A DNA stretch of 64,000 nucleotides from Methylophaga nitratireducenticrescens. GTDB taxonomy: Bacteria; Pseudomonadota; Gammaproteobacteria; Nitrosococcales; Methylophagaceae. The position numbers and the translations under genes were made by a program. The notes below the pieces were generated by a model. That model saw only the letters and a list, made by a program, of their open reading frames with translations, was not told the origin of the DNA and searched no databases. Shown here piece after piece: positions 36,797-48,517 of the stretch (position 1 is its first letter; each line of letters opens with the position of its first letter). The stretch lies in NCBI RefSeq assembly GCF_000260985.4, contig NC_017857.3, positions 1,302,001 through 1,366,000 of the forward strand. Reading direction: 5' to 3'.

Positions 36797-36917
36797 AGGC
36801 CAGTTGAAAATTGAAGAAATTCAGCAGAATTAATCTGTATAACTGTTTTGAATCATTCAGAATTGTTTTGCGGTAAAATTTATCCAGCTGGAATGTTATG
36901 CAGAATGAAACCGGGCT

Positions 36918-39288: not shown

Positions 39289-40213
39289 TAACAATAAAAA
39301 CCCAAATGAGTGTCCTGATACAGGACATGAGTGGGATGGCATCAGAGAATTGACAAATCCACCACCACGCTGGTGGATCATCGCTTTGTATTTAAGCGGT
39401 TTAATGGTTTTTATTTATTTTATACTTTATCCATCAATACCTTTAGTCAATGACAGTACCGATGGGTTGCTAGGCTGGAGCCAAATCGACGAATACAAAG
39501 AAGGTTTGGCAGAAATTGAAGCCAAGCGGGCACCCTATGAAAATCGAATTGCTGAGATGTCGGCTGAAGAAATTCTTCAAGATGATGAATTATTGCGTTA
39601 TGCCGTAGGCTCTAGCAAGGTACTTTATGGTGATAATTGCGCTGCTTGCCATGGTGTAGGTGGTATTCCCCCAGAAGGTGCAGGTTATCCAATTCTTGCT
39701 GATGATGACTGGTTATATGGTGGTTCAGTCAATAAAATTATCGAAACCCTGGCGAAAGGGCGACAAGGAATGATGCCGGCACATGCTGATTTACTGACTA
39801 CGGAAGAAGTCGATGGTCTGGTTGGTTTTGTTATCAGCAATTCAATGGGTGAAGCCACTGACGCGCAATGGAAACTCTATAATGAAAAAGGCTGTGCAGC
39901 GTGTCATGGTGCAGATGCTAAAGGGGTGCAACAATTAGGCTCAGCAAATTTATCCGATAGAATTTGGCGTTTTTCAGGGGAACCGGACGAAATCCGTCAT
40001 ACTATTCTGCATGGGGTGAACGATGCTAATGATCCAAAAACACGTGTTGCTGTGATGCCCGCATGGAATGAAAAACTTGCTGTGCGGATAGAAGCTGAAG
40101 AATATGGTGACGATCCTGAAGAATATTACGAAGGTGATGAAATCGAACGTCTAACCGAAACCGAGATTAAGAAACTTGCGATTTATGTGCATCAGCTGGG
40201 TGGTGGTGAATAA
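39278..40213 (+). CDS. ccoP: cbb3-type cytochrome c oxidase subunit III (diheme cytochrome c)
   Basis: Electron entry subunit, 311 aa. A soluble N-terminal stretch and one helix (about 32-56) precede two cytochrome c domains with CAACH at 121-125 and 206-210. An acidic insertion (about 268-290, Glu/Asp-rich) lies near the C-terminus. Two ATGs stand in a row; the second (39281) has the better distance to GGAG. It overlaps ccoQ and is followed 39 bases later by a 39-residue membrane peptide. Confidence 0.94.
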   Translation: MMADNNKNPNECPDTGHEWDGIRELTNPPPRWWIIALYLSGLMVFIYFILYPSIPLVNDSTDGLLGWSQIDEYKEGLAEIEAKRAPYENRIAEMSAEEILQDDELLRYAVGSSKVLYGDNCAACHGVGGIPPEGAGYPILADDDWLYGGSVNKIIETLAKGRQGMMPAHADLLTTEEVDGLVGFVISNSMGEATDAQWKLYNEKGCAACHGADAKGVQQLGSANLSDRIWRFSGEPDEIRHTILHGVNDANDPKTRVAVMPAWNEKLAVRIEAEEYGDDPEEYYEGDEIERLTETEIKKLAIYVHQLGGGE

Positions 40214-40252
40214 TAAACGTTAAACTGAATCTTATCCGTTAAGGAGCATGTT

Positions 40253-40372
40253 ATGGGGTTAGATGCTGTTGTAATTGCCGCGATTGTCAGTGTGGTATTA
40301 ACAATTGTGGTGATTGGGGTAATTGCGTACAAGATTGTTAAAAATATGGAAGATAGTTCCGAAGACAAATGA
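40253..40372 (+). CDS. 39-residue single-span peptide, CcoM-like candidate
   Basis: Very short frame with AAGGAG 6 bases before the ATG and a terminator just after. The peptide starts MGLDAVVIAA, is hydrophobic over residues 5-25 (AIVSVVLTIVVIGVIAY) and ends with a charged KIVKNMEDSSEDK tail. Size, topology and position right after ccoP match CcoM, the extra small subunit of Pseudomonas stutzeri cbb3 oxidase, and the N-terminal half has a similar Asp-x-Val-Val pattern from memory. Not every CcoM relative is adjacent to ccoP, so homology should be considered probable, not shown. Confidence 0.65.
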   Translation: MGLDAVVIAAIVSVVLTIVVIGVIAYKIVKNMEDSSEDK

Positions 40373-40386
40373 AATTATCTGTGAGC

Positions 40387-40415
40387 AAAAAAAGCCGATA
40401 CCAGCGGCTTTTTTT
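40387..40415 (+). terminator. Terminator of ccoNOQP and the small peptide gene
   Basis: Eleven-pair stem (AAAAAAAGCCG with CGGCTTTTTTT) around ATACCAG; the right arm is itself the T-run. It works in both directions. Confidence 0.88.
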
Positions 40416-40772
40416 GTGTTTGAAAAACTAAATTAGTAAATGTTTATGTTTAAAATTGGCAGCAGTTCAACAAATTTTTGTTCGAATAATTGTGGGTTCA
40501 ATTCAGCTCGTTATTCATTGAGTAATGTTCAATACCATCGACAAAATGATTGTTGTTCACTCTATTTTATGTAGACAGCAATGCACTATTTTGCATGAAA
40601 TAACAGATGGCGTTACTATTGACACACTTAAAATTACAATACTGATGGTTTTTACTGTGTACCGAATGAAAGCTTAGTATCGACTTGTGGCGTCAGACAG
40701 GTAGAGCTAGATAATTTATACAATTCAGCAATATCAATACTATACAAAAGCATCTTTGATGGGCCCAAATTC
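40416..40772 (+). other. AT-rich 357-bp spacer before ccoH
   Basis: No gene seen. It contains a TTGACA at 40619-40624 with TACAAT only 10 bases further on, too close for a standard promoter. Palindromic bits such as GCAATGCACTATTTTGCAT occur. ccoH-ccoI-ccoS must have a promoter here, but I cannot place it. Confidence 0.4.
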
Positions 40773-41276
40773 ATGGCAATTTCTCAGGAAAACAAACAAG
40801 CACTCAAAAATCCCTGGGTATTGGGGTTTCTTGGGTTTATGTGCCTTTTTTTATCAGCAAATGCGGTTTTTATCTACCTGGCTTTTAGCTCGCCACCCAA
40901 TTTGGTAGTAGATAATTATTACGAGCGCGGCAAAGCCTACACTAATAAAGAAGTACAAATGGGGCAAGAAAATGAGCTTGGTTGGAGCGGAGTCATTATG
41001 GTTCCGGCCAATAACCGGGTTAACCAGCGTCAGGCTTATGAAGTGTTGATCCAAGGAAAAAATTCTAGAACTGTAGAATTGGATTCTGTCAGCTTATTCG
41101 CTTATCGCCCATCAGATCAGCGTAAAGATTTTTCGGTTGAAATGAATCCCATAGGACTGGGTCGATATGGAGCGGATATTGAGTTTGGTTTGCCAGGTAA
41201 CTGGGACATTATTGTTGAAGCCAAGCGCGGCGATGATAAATTTGTGGTTACTCGCAGAATCTATATCGACCCTTGA
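40773..41276 (+). CDS. ccoH: FixH/CcoH-family cbb3 assembly protein
   Basis: Membrane protein needed for cbb3 oxidase assembly, 167 aa. It has one helix near the N-terminus (about 15-38), the family stretch VVDNYYERGKAY, and a periplasmic domain ending RIYIDP. First of the maturation genes ccoH-ccoI-ccoS. The ferredoxin-like ccoG, usually present before ccoH, is missing at this place. Confidence 0.85.
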   Translation: MAISQENKQALKNPWVLGFLGFMCLFLSANAVFIYLAFSSPPNLVVDNYYERGKAYTNKEVQMGQENELGWSGVIMVPANNRVNQRQAYEVLIQGKNSRTVELDSVSLFAYRPSDQRKDFSVEMNPIGLGRYGADIEFGLPGNWDIIVEAKRGDDKFVVTRRIYIDP

Positions 41277-43767: not shown

Positions 43768-43977
43768 ATGGAAGTCATTTATGGACTATTGCCTGGTATG
43801 TTATTACTAGGTTTGGTAGGCGTTGTCGTATTTTTTTGGACGGTGCGCAGTGGCCAGTATGATGACATGGAAGGTGATGCTAATCGGATTTTAATGGATG
43901 ATGATATTACCGAAGAAACTCAAGCGGAATCAGATAACGAAACCAAAGAACAAAATGAAGATAGTAAGGTTGATTAG
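43768..43977 (+). CDS. ccoS: cbb3 oxidase maturation protein CcoS
   Basis: Small single-span protein, 69 aa, needed for cofactor insertion in the oxidase. The helix (about 5-28, PGMLLLGLVGVVVFFWTVRSG) is followed by the family motif SGQYDDMEGDANRILMDDD. The tail is long and acidic (Glu/Asp/Lys). The next gene starts 23 bases before its stop. Confidence 0.88.
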   Translation: MEVIYGLLPGMLLLGLVGVVVFFWTVRSGQYDDMEGDANRILMDDDITEETQAESDNETKEQNEDSKVD

Positions 43978-45133
43978 AGTTTTTGTTCTATGTTGTTTCA
44001 GCCTTATGCTGGTGAAAAATGTTCTGGCGGAAAATGTACGAGTTGGCATGAGTAGTGCTTTGAGTGGTCCACTATCCGAAATGGGACTGTCAATGCAAGC
44101 CGGAATAAACGCATATTTTTCCAAGATTAATTCTGTGGGAGGTATTAAAGGTAATCATCTTGAATTGTTGGCTCTGGATGATGCCTATGAGCCAGTACAG
44201 GCGGCAGCTAACATGCGCGAATTAATTAATAAGCATGAGGTGGTGGCAGTGCTTGGCAATGTTGGAACACCAACAGCGGTCGTTACTGTACCGATTGCCG
44301 AGCAGTTTAAGATTGCTTTGGTAGGAGCGTTTTCTGGTGGCGATGTATTAAGACCGGAACCACCGAGTCAGTACATCATCAATTTCCGGCCAGGATACCG
44401 GCAAGAAGTTGCCACGCTGATAAATGGTTTGTTGGATGCAGGGATTCAACCCGAGGATATTGCTTTTTTTACTCAACAAGATAGTTACGGCAATGCTGTA
44501 TTTCAGGCTGCAACCCTGGCATTGCAAGCCCGAGGGTTTATCCACGTCGATTTTCTGACCCATGCCTATTACTCTCGCAATACGTTGAATGTGGAAGGGG
44601 CTGTTGCGACGATTCTGAAAGCAGAAAAATTACCTAAAGTTATTCTCATGGGAGGAAGCTATGCTCCTTCGGCCAAGTTTATCAAGCTGTTACATGAATC
44701 AATATCTGATGTTTGGTTTGTTAATGTGTCGTTTGTCGGTAGTCATGTTCTGGAGCGATCCCTTAAAGGCGTCAATGCAAATGTGCTGGTCAGTCAGGTT
44801 GTACCGGAAATTGATGCTGAATTGCCAGTTGTTGATGAATATAGAAAGGCTTTAGCAGCGTATGATGAAAGCCTGCAGCCTAATACAGTCTCTTTGGAAG
44901 GTTATATTGTCGCAAAAGTCTTTTGCCAGGCCCTACAACGTATTGATGGTTCTATAACACGAGAGTCCGTGAGCAATGCTTTACATGATCTGGCTGATGT
45001 GGATATCGGTTTAGAAAGTCAGGTTGTTCCCATCCCCTCCTCATCACAAATAAGTAATAAAGTCTGGCTCAGCAAATTGGAGAACGGAACGTTTCAATCT
45101 TTCGAGTGGCGTGATTTTGAGTTATCACACTAG
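43955..45133 (+). CDS. Periplasmic ligand-binding protein (Leu/Ile/Val-type) without transporter
   Basis: Type 1 periplasmic binding protein, about 392 aa. The signal peptide (residues 1 to about 25) ends VLA-EN; the mature start VRVGMSSALSGPLSEMG is the usual first strand of the receptor family. LALDDAYEP, AVLGNVGTPTAV and FTQQDSYGNAVF are the ligand-cleft segments. There is no permease or ATPase in the area. Instead a membrane GGDEF-EAL protein starts 24 bases downstream, so it probably works as a ligand-sensing subunit. It overlaps ccoS by 23 bases, which puts it on the cbb3 maturation transcript. A ribosome-binding site is not obvious. Confidence 0.82.
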   Translation: MKIVRLIRVFVLCCFSLMLVKNVLAENVRVGMSSALSGPLSEMGLSMQAGINAYFSKINSVGGIKGNHLELLALDDAYEPVQAAANMRELINKHEVVAVLGNVGTPTAVVTVPIAEQFKIALVGAFSGGDVLRPEPPSQYIINFRPGYRQEVATLINGLLDAGIQPEDIAFFTQQDSYGNAVFQAATLALQARGFIHVDFLTHAYYSRNTLNVEGAVATILKAEKLPKVILMGGSYAPSAKFIKLLHESISDVWFVNVSFVGSHVLERSLKGVNANVLVSQVVPEIDAELPVVDEYRKALAAYDESLQPNTVSLEGYIVAKVFCQALQRIDGSITRESVSNALHDLADVDIGLESQVVPIPSSSQISNKVWLSKLENGTFQSFEWRDFELSH

Positions 45134-45157
45134 CTTCATCAATGAGATGTGAGCAAG

Positions 45158-48100
45158 ATGAACAGGGAAAATATGTTTAAAAATTGGAGCATCCGAACCC
45201 TGCTACACTTCTGGGCGGTCGTCACGGTATTAATGATATTGTTGATGGCAGCGATTGCTATGTTCAGTCATCAGCATTACACCAAAAATCAACAACAGCT
45301 TACCGAACAAGTTTTTCCGCTGGTGAATAATGCCAGAGAAATCAGTACGAATGTAGCGGCGTTTATTTCCAGACAGAAGCAGATTATCAGTGCACAACAT
45401 GCTGATCAGCTTCTGCATATTCCTCAACGAGAACCGCTTGAATCAGCATTTGAACAAAGTTGGCAAGATTTGTTGAGGCATATGCAACAGCTTGAAATTG
45501 AACCAGAATTAACCGGTGTGTTGGCTGAATATTATCAGCAATTCCTTGAAACTGACAGCCAGTTACTACAACAAATGCAGCTGCAGCATCAACTTTCCGA
45601 TCAACTTGAACAACGTGCAAACAATGTATCTGTGCTGACCAGAGAGATACAACGTCTGGCCGAATCAATTACCGGAAAAATTGATTTGGCCGTGACACTA
45701 AAATTGCAAACATTACGTGCTAATAAAGTGGTAGACGAGGAACCTGAAACGGCTGCATTAATCCAGAATTACACGACCGTTGAGCGAAGCAGTTATTCAC
45801 TCATGCTCAATGTGTTACGCATCAGTAACTTAAGTCAGCAACTCCGGGAGACACAAAATCCGGATTTATTGCTCAGCCTTCGGGAAAACGATATTCGTGA
45901 GCTGGTATCAATGTTACATAATGATATTTTGATCATTAAACAACATTTGCAAACTCACTCTGAGTTATTGGTGTTGGCAGACAAATTACAACAGCATATT
46001 GATAGCTTTATTCACCTCGTTATTGATGAGGATAATTCCATCTATCAGTTGCGGATCCGTCAAATGGAGGCCTATAAAACGTCTCAGGCAGTGCAGCAAC
46101 AGGGATTGAATATTCTGAAAATGCTGATGCTCAATCTAAATAATCTTTCCACCCGAGCCGGGGAGCAGGGATTAGCCAGAACCCAAGAATCAGCCGCGCT
46201 GGCCAAAACGGCCAGATGGTGGGTGATTATCAGCTGTTTTGTTCTTGCTCTGGGGATAACCTGGTTTGTGTTTACTATGACGGCACAGATCAATCAACCG
46301 ATGCAACGATTGCGTAAAGCGATGCATGCGTTGTCAGCACAAAAATTTGATACCCGCATGCCAACAAACAATGGTCAGAGTGAATTTAATTTACTGGCCA
46401 GTGATTTTAATGTGTTTGCAGCGCAAACGCAGAGTTTAATTGCGAAATTGGATGAAACAAAACATTCACTGGAAGTCAGGGAAACGCATATTCGTGCTAT
46501 TTTAAATGGCGTTCCTGAAGCCATTCTGGCATTACAGGCGGATGGAACTATCAGTTCGTGCAATCCTGCAGCAGAAAAAATTTTACAAGCCAGCGAATGC
46601 CAGCTGGCTGGTCAGAAAATACTGCGTTTTTTTGCACCATCTGAAAGAATCCAGTCGCTTACTGATATCAATCGGATACAGAAAGATAACCGCGAATTTG
46701 AAGGCGTTAACTGGCACGGCGATGTATTTTCTATGTGGGTTTCGCTTAGTCCTTTATCAGAGTTTGATGATGATATCTGGGTTTGCGTGATTTCGGATAT
46801 CAGTTCATGGAAACGAACCAAACTGGCGTTAGTGCAAACTAGTAATGAATTAAATGCCATTCTGGAAAATGCCATGGTCGGTATTGCCTTTATCAAGAAT
46901 CGCCATATTATTCGGGTGAATAATAAATTCGAACAATTGTTTTTGTTTGCCCGTGAGGATATTGAAGGACAAAGTACGTTATGTCTGCATCCAAGTGAGG
47001 AAGCCTTTGAACGCTTTGGCGAGCAGGCTTATAACACATTATCTGAAGCAGAGAACTTTGAAGCCCAGGTTGAAATGATTCGTGCCAATGGGGAAAAATT
47101 CTGGTGTGCGGTCGCTGGCCAGATAATTGATCCGGTAAATCCGGCTGCGGGATCAATCTGGCTGTATGAAGATGTCACACATCAACGACAAAATGAAGAA
47201 CGGCTGACCCGTTTAGCCAGCAGCGATATTTTGACGGGCTTGCCTAATCGTGGTGTCTTCAAAGATCGCCTCGAACATGCCATTCATAAAGCCAAACGTC
47301 AAAATGGTCGCCTGGCCGTATTTTTTCTTGATTTGGACCATTTCAAACATATAAATGATTCATTGGGCCATAAAGCTGGTGACATTCTCTTGTGCGAGGT
47401 GGCACGACGTATTCGTTCCTGTGTCAGAGACAGCGACACTGTCGCTAGATTGGGCGGGGATGAATTTACCGTGATTCTGGAAGACGTCAATTCTGCTCGA
47501 TATGTCGGCAAAGTGGCTGAAAAAATTCTAAACACCACAGCATTGCCTTATATGCTGGATAATATTGAAGTTAATATCAGTCCGAGTATCGGAATCAGCT
47601 TGTACCCTGCCGATGGGCGTGATGTAGATATGCTGGTACGTAACGCAGATGCGGCAATGTACTATGCCAAAAGTAGTGGACGTAATAATTTTCAGTTTTA
47701 CTCTTCAGAAATGAATGCCCAGGCATCACAGCGACTGGCGATGGAAACCAGTTTGCGTCGTGCAGTTGAATTGCAAGAGTTTTATCTGCAATTTCAACCG
47801 CAAATTGATCTGGAAACAGGCCGTGTTGCAGGTGCTGAGGTGTTATTACGTTGGCATACAGAGCAATGGGGAGATGTTTCACCAGCGATTTTTGTCCCAG
47901 TATTGGAAGATACTGGACTTATTAACACGGTAGGCGAGTGGGTTTTGAAAAAAACCTGTGAAGCATTTATGGCGAATCGAAATTATTTGCCGGATGACTT
48001 TTTAATAGCGGTAAACCTTTCCGGACGACAATTTAAGGGTAATTTACTGATCAATTTTGTTCGTAATTTGCTTGAACAGACCGGGATGCCTGCAAAAAAC

Positions 48101-48517
48101 CTGGAATTGGAAATCACTGAAAGTTTATTAATGGAGAACACTGAGCAAGCTGTTCAGACCTTACGAGAATTGAGTTTGCTTGGTATTACCCTGGCAATTG
48201 ATGATTTTGGTACCGGTTATTCTTCATTATCTTACTTGAAGCAGTTTCCGCTCAATGTATTGAAAATTGACCGGACGTTTGTTCGTGATGTAACAGAGGA
48301 CAGTGACGATGCGGCTATCGTAAATGCGATTTTAGCGATGTCCAAAAGCCTCGCATTAGAAGTGGTTGCGGAAGGTGTTGAGACTGCAGAACAGCTGGCA
48401 TTTTTACGTAAGAGTCAGTGCAAACGAGCCCAGGGGTTTTATTTCAGTAAAGCCATTAATTTGGACGAACTGATGGATTACATAAAAGCAACGGATCAGA
48501 ATGTCCGAGCGGTATAA
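45158..48517 (+). CDS. Membrane GGDEF-EAL protein with TorS-like helical sensor
   Basis: 1119-aa c-di-GMP enzyme. It has TM1 (about 12-36) and a long all-helical periplasmic sensor (about 40-345, Gln/Leu-rich heptads), like the TorS sensor bundle. TM2 (about 352-375), HAMP, two PAS domains (about 440-555 and 560-680), GGDEF and EAL follow. RLGGDEF (about 766) has RDSD five residues before it; EVLLRW, LELEITE, DDFGTGYSSL and AEGVET show a complete EAL site. Both activities are therefore plausible. GTG (45149) and ATG (45173, AGGG 5 bases upstream) are alternative starts. Pairing with the binding protein upstream suggests ligand-bound protein docks on the sensor. The 3' end overlaps the convergent gene by 22 bases. 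Confidence 0.87.
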   Translation: MNRENMFKNWSIRTLLHFWAVVTVLMILLMAAIAMFSHQHYTKNQQQLTEQVFPLVNNAREISTNVAAFISRQKQIISAQHADQLLHIPQREPLESAFEQSWQDLLRHMQQLEIEPELTGVLAEYYQQFLETDSQLLQQMQLQHQLSDQLEQRANNVSVLTREIQRLAESITGKIDLAVTLKLQTLRANKVVDEEPETAALIQNYTTVERSSYSLMLNVLRISNLSQQLRETQNPDLLLSLRENDIRELVSMLHNDILIIKQHLQTHSELLVLADKLQQHIDSFIHLVIDEDNSIYQLRIRQMEAYKTSQAVQQQGLNILKMLMLNLNNLSTRAGEQGLARTQESAALAKTARWWVIISCFVLALGITWFVFTMTAQINQPMQRLRKAMHALSAQKFDTRMPTNNGQSEFNLLASDFNVFAAQTQSLIAKLDETKHSLEVRETHIRAILNGVPEAILALQADGTISSCNPAAEKILQASECQLAGQKILRFFAPSERIQSLTDINRIQKDNREFEGVNWHGDVFSMWVSLSPLSEFDDDIWVCVISDISSWKRTKLALVQTSNELNAILENAMVGIAFIKNRHIIRVNNKFEQLFLFAREDIEGQSTLCLHPSEEAFERFGEQAYNTLSEAENFEAQVEMIRANGEKFWCAVAGQIIDPVNPAAGSIWLYEDVTHQRQNEERLTRLASSDILTGLPNRGVFKDRLEHAIHKAKRQNGRLAVFFLDLDHFKHINDSLGHKAGDILLCEVARRIRSCVRDSDTVARLGGDEFTVILEDVNSARYVGKVAEKILNTTALPYMLDNIEVNISPSIGISLYPADGRDVDMLVRNADAAMYYAKSSGRNNFQFYSSEMNAQASQRLAMETSLRRAVELQEFYLQFQPQIDLETGRVAGAEVLLRWHTEQWGDVSPAIFVPVLEDTGLINTVGEWVLKKTCEAFMANRNYLPDDFLIAVNLSGRQFKGNLLINFVRNLLEQTGMPAKNLELEITESLLMENTEQAVQTLRELSLLGITLAIDDFGTGYSSLSYLKQFPLNVLKIDRTFVRDVTEDSDDAAIVNAILAMSKSLALEVVAEGVETAEQLAFLRKSQCKRAQGFYFSKAINLDELMDYIKATDQNVRAV

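Follow-up and report, generated by a model that had tools for sequence, protein, structure and literature searches.

A Liv-type binding protein and a TorS-fold GGDEF-EAL enzyme as a likely two-part c-di-GMP receptor in Methylophaga nitratireducenticrescens

Organization of the locus

The gene pair described here lies in a 64,000-nucleotide stretch (positions 1,302,001 to 1,366,000, hereafter the window, from whose first nucleotide coordinates are counted) of the Methylophaga nitratireducenticrescens genome, a closed single contig of 3.1 Mb that is 99.99% complete (NC_017857.3). The genes follow one another on the plus strand in the order ccoN-ccoO-ccoP, ccoH-ccoI-ccoS, a gene for a type I solute-binding protein (SBP) and a gene for a c-di-GMP enzyme. 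The 3′ end of ccoS (43768-43977; 69 residues, cbb3 oxidase maturation), whose synteny with ccoH and ccoI is kept in relatives, overlaps the start of the SBP gene (43955-45133; 392 residues) by 23 nt, and a gap of 24 nt separates the SBP gene from the enzyme gene downstream (45158-48517; 1119 residues).

The SBP carries a predicted signal peptide (about 43955-44029) and matches Peripla_BP_6 with an E-value of 5.4e-42, in agreement with the original prediction of a secreted Leu/Ile/Val-type binding protein. Its Pfam matches are confined to Peripla_BP_6 (PF13458), ANF_receptor and Peripla_BP_5. The closest solved structure is 4KV7, an orphan 'leucine/isoleucine/valine-binding' structure from Rhodopirellula baltica, to which the SBP is similar along its full length (41% identity over 368 columns; phmmer E 5.7e-90; Foldseek E 1.2e-36, TM 0.85/0.90), placing both in the same subfamily. 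Residues at the position of the LivJ amino-acid pocket, as judged by eye, are not conserved in the SBP. Our search of the literature, which covered few subscription papers, found neither a function or partner for 4KV7 nor a paper on the SBP subfamily.

The SBP was predicted to have no matching permease, and a profile search of the whole closed genome bears this out: no LivH/LivM-type permease (PF02653) was detected, the same search having found one in 12 of 14 control genomes. The protein thus stands apart from a Liv-type ABC uptake system by the lack of its permease. Apart from the SBP, the PF13458 profile matches the genome once, at half length within a 622-residue frame elsewhere. Among the 25 SBP-bearing genomes of the family (Methylophagaceae), 16 lack a PF02653 permease (M. 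nitratireducenticrescens included; 10 of the 16 are at least 90% complete), whereas the other nine encode one somewhere.

The downstream neighbor is, as anticipated, a membrane c-di-GMP enzyme. From its N-terminus it comprises a first transmembrane helix (TM1), a periplasmic domain of ~315 residues, a second transmembrane helix (TM2), a HAMP domain (residues 375-424, 46280-46429; PF00672), two PAS domains (residues 444-548, 46487-46801, PF00989; and residues 575-674, 46880-47179, PF13426), a GGDEF domain (47219-47689; Pfam E 3.6e-51) and an EAL domain (47750-48451; Pfam E 1.1e-72). On inspection of the sequence the GGDEF motif (RLGGDEF) and the RxxD inhibitory-site motif are intact. In the EAL domain the signature reads EVL in place of EAL, and the remaining catalytic residues (N, E, DD, K, E and Q) are present in the motifs VNLS, LEITE, IDDFGTGYSS, LKID, VAEGVE and QG. 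Judged by these motifs, the protein has the residues expected of a bifunctional diguanylate cyclase/phosphodiesterase; because of the EVL replacement, its phosphodiesterase activity is probable rather than certain.

Fold of the periplasmic sensor and comparison with known systems

The periplasmic domain (about residues 37-352, 45266-46213) was predicted to be all-helical and of about 300 residues, and an AlphaFold2 model built with 35 related sensors has this character (pLDDT 84, pTM 0.64). In a Foldseek search of the PDB with this model, ranks 1-5 and 7 are occupied by the TorS sensor or the TorS-TorT complex (top matches 3o1i, 3o1j, 3o1h and 3i9y; E 4e-7 to 4e-4; TM-scores to the target of 0.57-0.71). 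By sequence, single and profile searches of the PDB with the sensor did not find TorS and returned only HAMP-type and weak coiled-coil matches, so that the predicted likeness to TorS stands for the fold and does not extend to sequence. When the helices of the model are read in order, residues 153-288 (45614-46021) form the membrane-distal four-helix bundle, which bears G173 and N244 and which we propose as the SBP docking site.

The architecture resembles that of TorT-TorS, the trimethylamine N-oxide (TMAO) receptor of E. coli and Vibrio, in joining a type I periplasmic binding protein to an all-helical two-bundle sensor. The pair differs from it in both partners: TorT is of the Peripla_BP_4 type whereas the SBP is of the Peripla_BP_6 type, and the output of TorS is a hybrid histidine kinase rather than GGDEF-EAL. 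The Peripla_BP_4 profile (PF13407) has no match in the whole genome, and identity with TorTS was rejected on these grounds. Of the envisaged union of a TorT-like receptor with a c-di-GMP output, the pairing of an SBP with a GGDEF-EAL enzyme is therefore retained, but the binding protein is not TorT.

NspS-MbaA of Vibrio cholerae, which responds to polyamines, and ScrB-ScrC of V. parahaemolyticus likewise place a binding protein beside a membrane GGDEF-EAL enzyme, a likeness known here from architecture and linkage. NspS and ScrB belong to SBP families other than the Liv type, and in neither system is a Liv-type SBP joined to a sensor of TorS fold. Identity with NspS-MbaA was rejected since the Pfam matches of the SBP do not include a polyamine type. 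The gating of membrane GGDEF-EAL enzymes by periplasmic binding proteins is itself an accepted mechanism (PMC8967002, PMC9602780, PMC11113362).

Two further groups of receptors bear comparison. The sensor of LuxQ is a double PDC domain of α/β fold and its output is a histidine kinase, both unlike the enzyme described here. Its partner LuxP is, as here, a type I SBP. In LuxP-LuxQ the periplasmic binding protein controls the membrane receptor (PMC8534201). The HBM and PilJ sensors (McpS, PilJ) share the two-bundle helical architecture but are weaker structural matches to the model (Foldseek ranks 6, 8 and 14; E 3e-4 to 0.06, compared with 4e-7 for TorS), and McpS was crystallized with malate or succinate bound directly. 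Assignment to the HBM family was rejected, as the sensor has no Pfam HBM match and its best fold match is TorS rather than McpS. SBP-gated c-di-GMP enzymes and TorT-TorS are thus known separately, and their combination with a Liv-type SBP appears to be new: in the literature searched, which left most subscription papers outside, we found no account of a system that unites a Liv-type SBP, a sensor of TorS fold and GGDEF-EAL, nor of the range of outputs that share this SBP and sensor.

Linkage, loss and reuse of the pair

Within the family the SBP gene lies directly upstream of the enzyme gene in every SBP-bearing genome (25/25), and the ccoH-ccoI-ccoS-SBP-enzyme synteny recurs. In about half of the family the enzyme occurs with no SBP; the enzyme is retained in all 21 SBP-less genomes inspected, and where cco genes lie upstream in such genomes it directly follows ccoS in nearly all. 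Survival of the enzyme in these lineages indicates that part of its function is independent of the SBP and may be exerted through the PAS domains. On a tree of the cytoplasmic part of the enzyme, SBP presence requires four changes, at least three of them forced by well-supported branches. In Methylophaga muralis Bur 1 (L056/L076) both the SBP and the enzyme are split into several frames, either as pseudogenes or through sequencing errors.

Loss of the SBP is accompanied by changes in the sensor. G173, I175/L177, D236, S240 and N244 are fixed in the SBP-bearing genomes of the family and, as a set, only there; sensors from genomes without the SBP never retain G173 and very seldom N244. The proximal-bundle residues R72, E95 and D133 are kept with or without it. 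In two SBP-less genomes (G034, G047) exactly residues 153-288 are missing from the sensor, and in two others (G040, G051) residues 32-342 are missing while the enzyme, HAMP and PAS domains persist. The distal bundle and its conserved residues therefore behave as the SBP-dependent part of the receptor, although this conservation could reflect folding as well as docking.

We also surveyed 368 further gammaproteobacterial genomes, drawn evenly, with cut-offs of E at most 1e-123 for the SBP and at most 1e-12 for the sensor. A close SBP was found in nine, the sensor in six and both in five (hypergeometric p about 1e-8); the pair is adjacent in four of these five and on separate contigs in the other. 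Such co-occurrence is far beyond chance, so that the association of SBP and sensor is not random, as the original prediction supposed.

A scan of named genomes yielded 80 loci in several phyla. Of these, 59 lie outside the family; contig ends truncate three of them, which leaves 56 that can be assessed. At 53 of the 56 a receptor is encoded by a neighboring gene, no more than two genes away, or in one fusion with the SBP-subfamily protein; L131, L146 and L151 are the exceptions. By manual count the receptors comprise 27 chemoreceptors, 9 histidine kinases, 7 GGDEF or GGDEF-EAL proteins, 6 truncated receptors that bear a homologous sensor, 3 Ser/Thr kinases (in two of which kinase and SBP form a single protein) and 1 dCache protein. 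All 35 SBP-linked sensors compared, whose outputs include MCP, GGDEF and GGDEF-EAL, possess both G173 and N244. The output class changes at least seven times on the SBP tree (parsimony, four classes), and SBP and sensor distances outside the family are correlated (Mantel rho 0.59; 0 of 2000 permutations). Among 104 neighboring proteins scanned, no ABC permease or ATPase family has two or more members. We consider it likely that the pair represents an unnamed, widespread co-receptor family, in which a 4KV7-like SBP and a TorS-fold sensor with a distal docking bundle serve interchangeable chemoreceptor, diguanylate cyclase/phosphodiesterase and hybrid histidine kinase outputs, and in which the SBP is also fused to Ser/Thr kinases.

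Several individual loci have unusual arrangements. In Aliikangiella marina and a Lentisphaeria MAG (L150:5525-8119 and L149:1491-4106) an N-terminal Ser/Thr kinase and a C-terminal SBP-subfamily domain are joined in one protein. A verrucomicrobial locus (L137:1574-7033) encodes, in this order, a histidine kinase whose sensor is homologous, a response-regulator/nucleotide-cyclase protein and the SBP. At a further locus (L082:6944-12187) the genes for the SBP, for another SBP of NMT1 type and for a GGDEF protein succeed one another; the receptor encoded there may have two binding proteins.

A proposed receptor mechanism and its alternatives

The SBP and the enzyme very probably form a two-part transmembrane receptor that serves no transporter, in which the SBP would dock on the distal bundle and its ligand would shift the c-di-GMP balance. 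We infer docking and switching from the analogy to TorT-TorS and from the pattern of co-loss. The secreted SBP, with or without a small-molecule ligand, would bind the membrane-distal four-helix bundle of the sensor, and ligand-induced closure of the SBP would alter the packing of the sensor dimer. The signal may then pass through the proximal bundle, TM2 and HAMP to the PAS-GGDEF-EAL portion, where the predicted activities would be rebalanced between c-di-GMP synthesis and breakdown.

Annotation customarily treats binding proteins as transporter parts, and it would label the SBP a leucine transporter component. An ordinary uptake role, in which the SBP works with a transporter that is remote or not its cognate one and stands beside the enzyme through incidental operon packing, would fit the founding members of Peripla_BP_6 (the transport proteins LivJ and LivK) and the PF02653 permeases of the nine SBP-bearing relatives. 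It is very hard to reconcile, however, with the closed M. nitratireducenticrescens genome, which has no such permease, with the return of the subfamily beside receptors in other phyla, with no ABC permease or ATPase family recurring among the 104 neighbors scanned, and with the fusion of the SBP to a Ser/Thr kinase in two genomes; we regard it as highly improbable. That the receptor is a former one, its enzyme now driven mainly by cytoplasmic or membrane signals through the PAS domains and proximal bundle and its SBP a mere modulator or in the course of being lost, has somewhat more in its favor, as the enzyme, HAMP and PAS domains are still present where the SBP, and in two genomes the whole sensor, is gone, and SBP presence has changed repeatedly within the family. 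The strict joint conservation of the SBP and the distal-bundle motifs nevertheless argues for a maintained function in SBP-bearing lineages, M. nitratireducenticrescens included, and makes this second account unlikely. The SBP is more probably the ligand-sensing partner in a c-di-GMP receptor than a part of a leucine transporter, and its relatives probably serve chemotaxis and phosphorelays likewise.

In a 2022 census of c-di-GMP sensing, the periplasmic-binding-protein clan comprised 27 Pfam families, one of which had been studied within c-di-GMP proteins (PMC8846402). How an SBP communicates with its receptor is a long-standing question; close relatives, in which the proposed docking bundle has been lost naturally while the rest of the sensor remains, make it testable with short constructs.

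A further proposal, compatible with the receptor reading, ties expression of the pair to cbb3 oxidase maturation, making it a low-oxygen or redox c-di-GMP switch in which the SBP would sense a respiratory compound as TorT senses TMAO. The overlap with ccoS on which the original prediction built is real, as is the conserved ccoH-ccoI-ccoS-SBP-enzyme order, and 15 relatives have an FNR-type box 143-164 nt upstream of ccoN, with 0-1 mismatches in 14 and two in the other. In M. nitratireducenticrescens, however, the FNR/Anr-type box has decayed to three mismatches (36830-36843), a terminator-like hairpin recognized by eye separates ccoP from ccoH (about 40388-40416), and SBP pairs outside the family have no cco genes nearby. 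We therefore hold the switch to be a doubtful extension: co-expression with the oxidase is plausible for the lineage, and for M. nitratireducenticrescens itself the case is circumstantial.

The cco cluster of the window has two other features. A predicted membrane protein of 39 residues (40253-40372) is encoded after ccoP and before the hairpin. The ccoG gene, found between ccoP and ccoH in relatives, is absent at this place (40213-40773), and a 70% identical copy is present elsewhere in the genome (C1:2617661-2619043).
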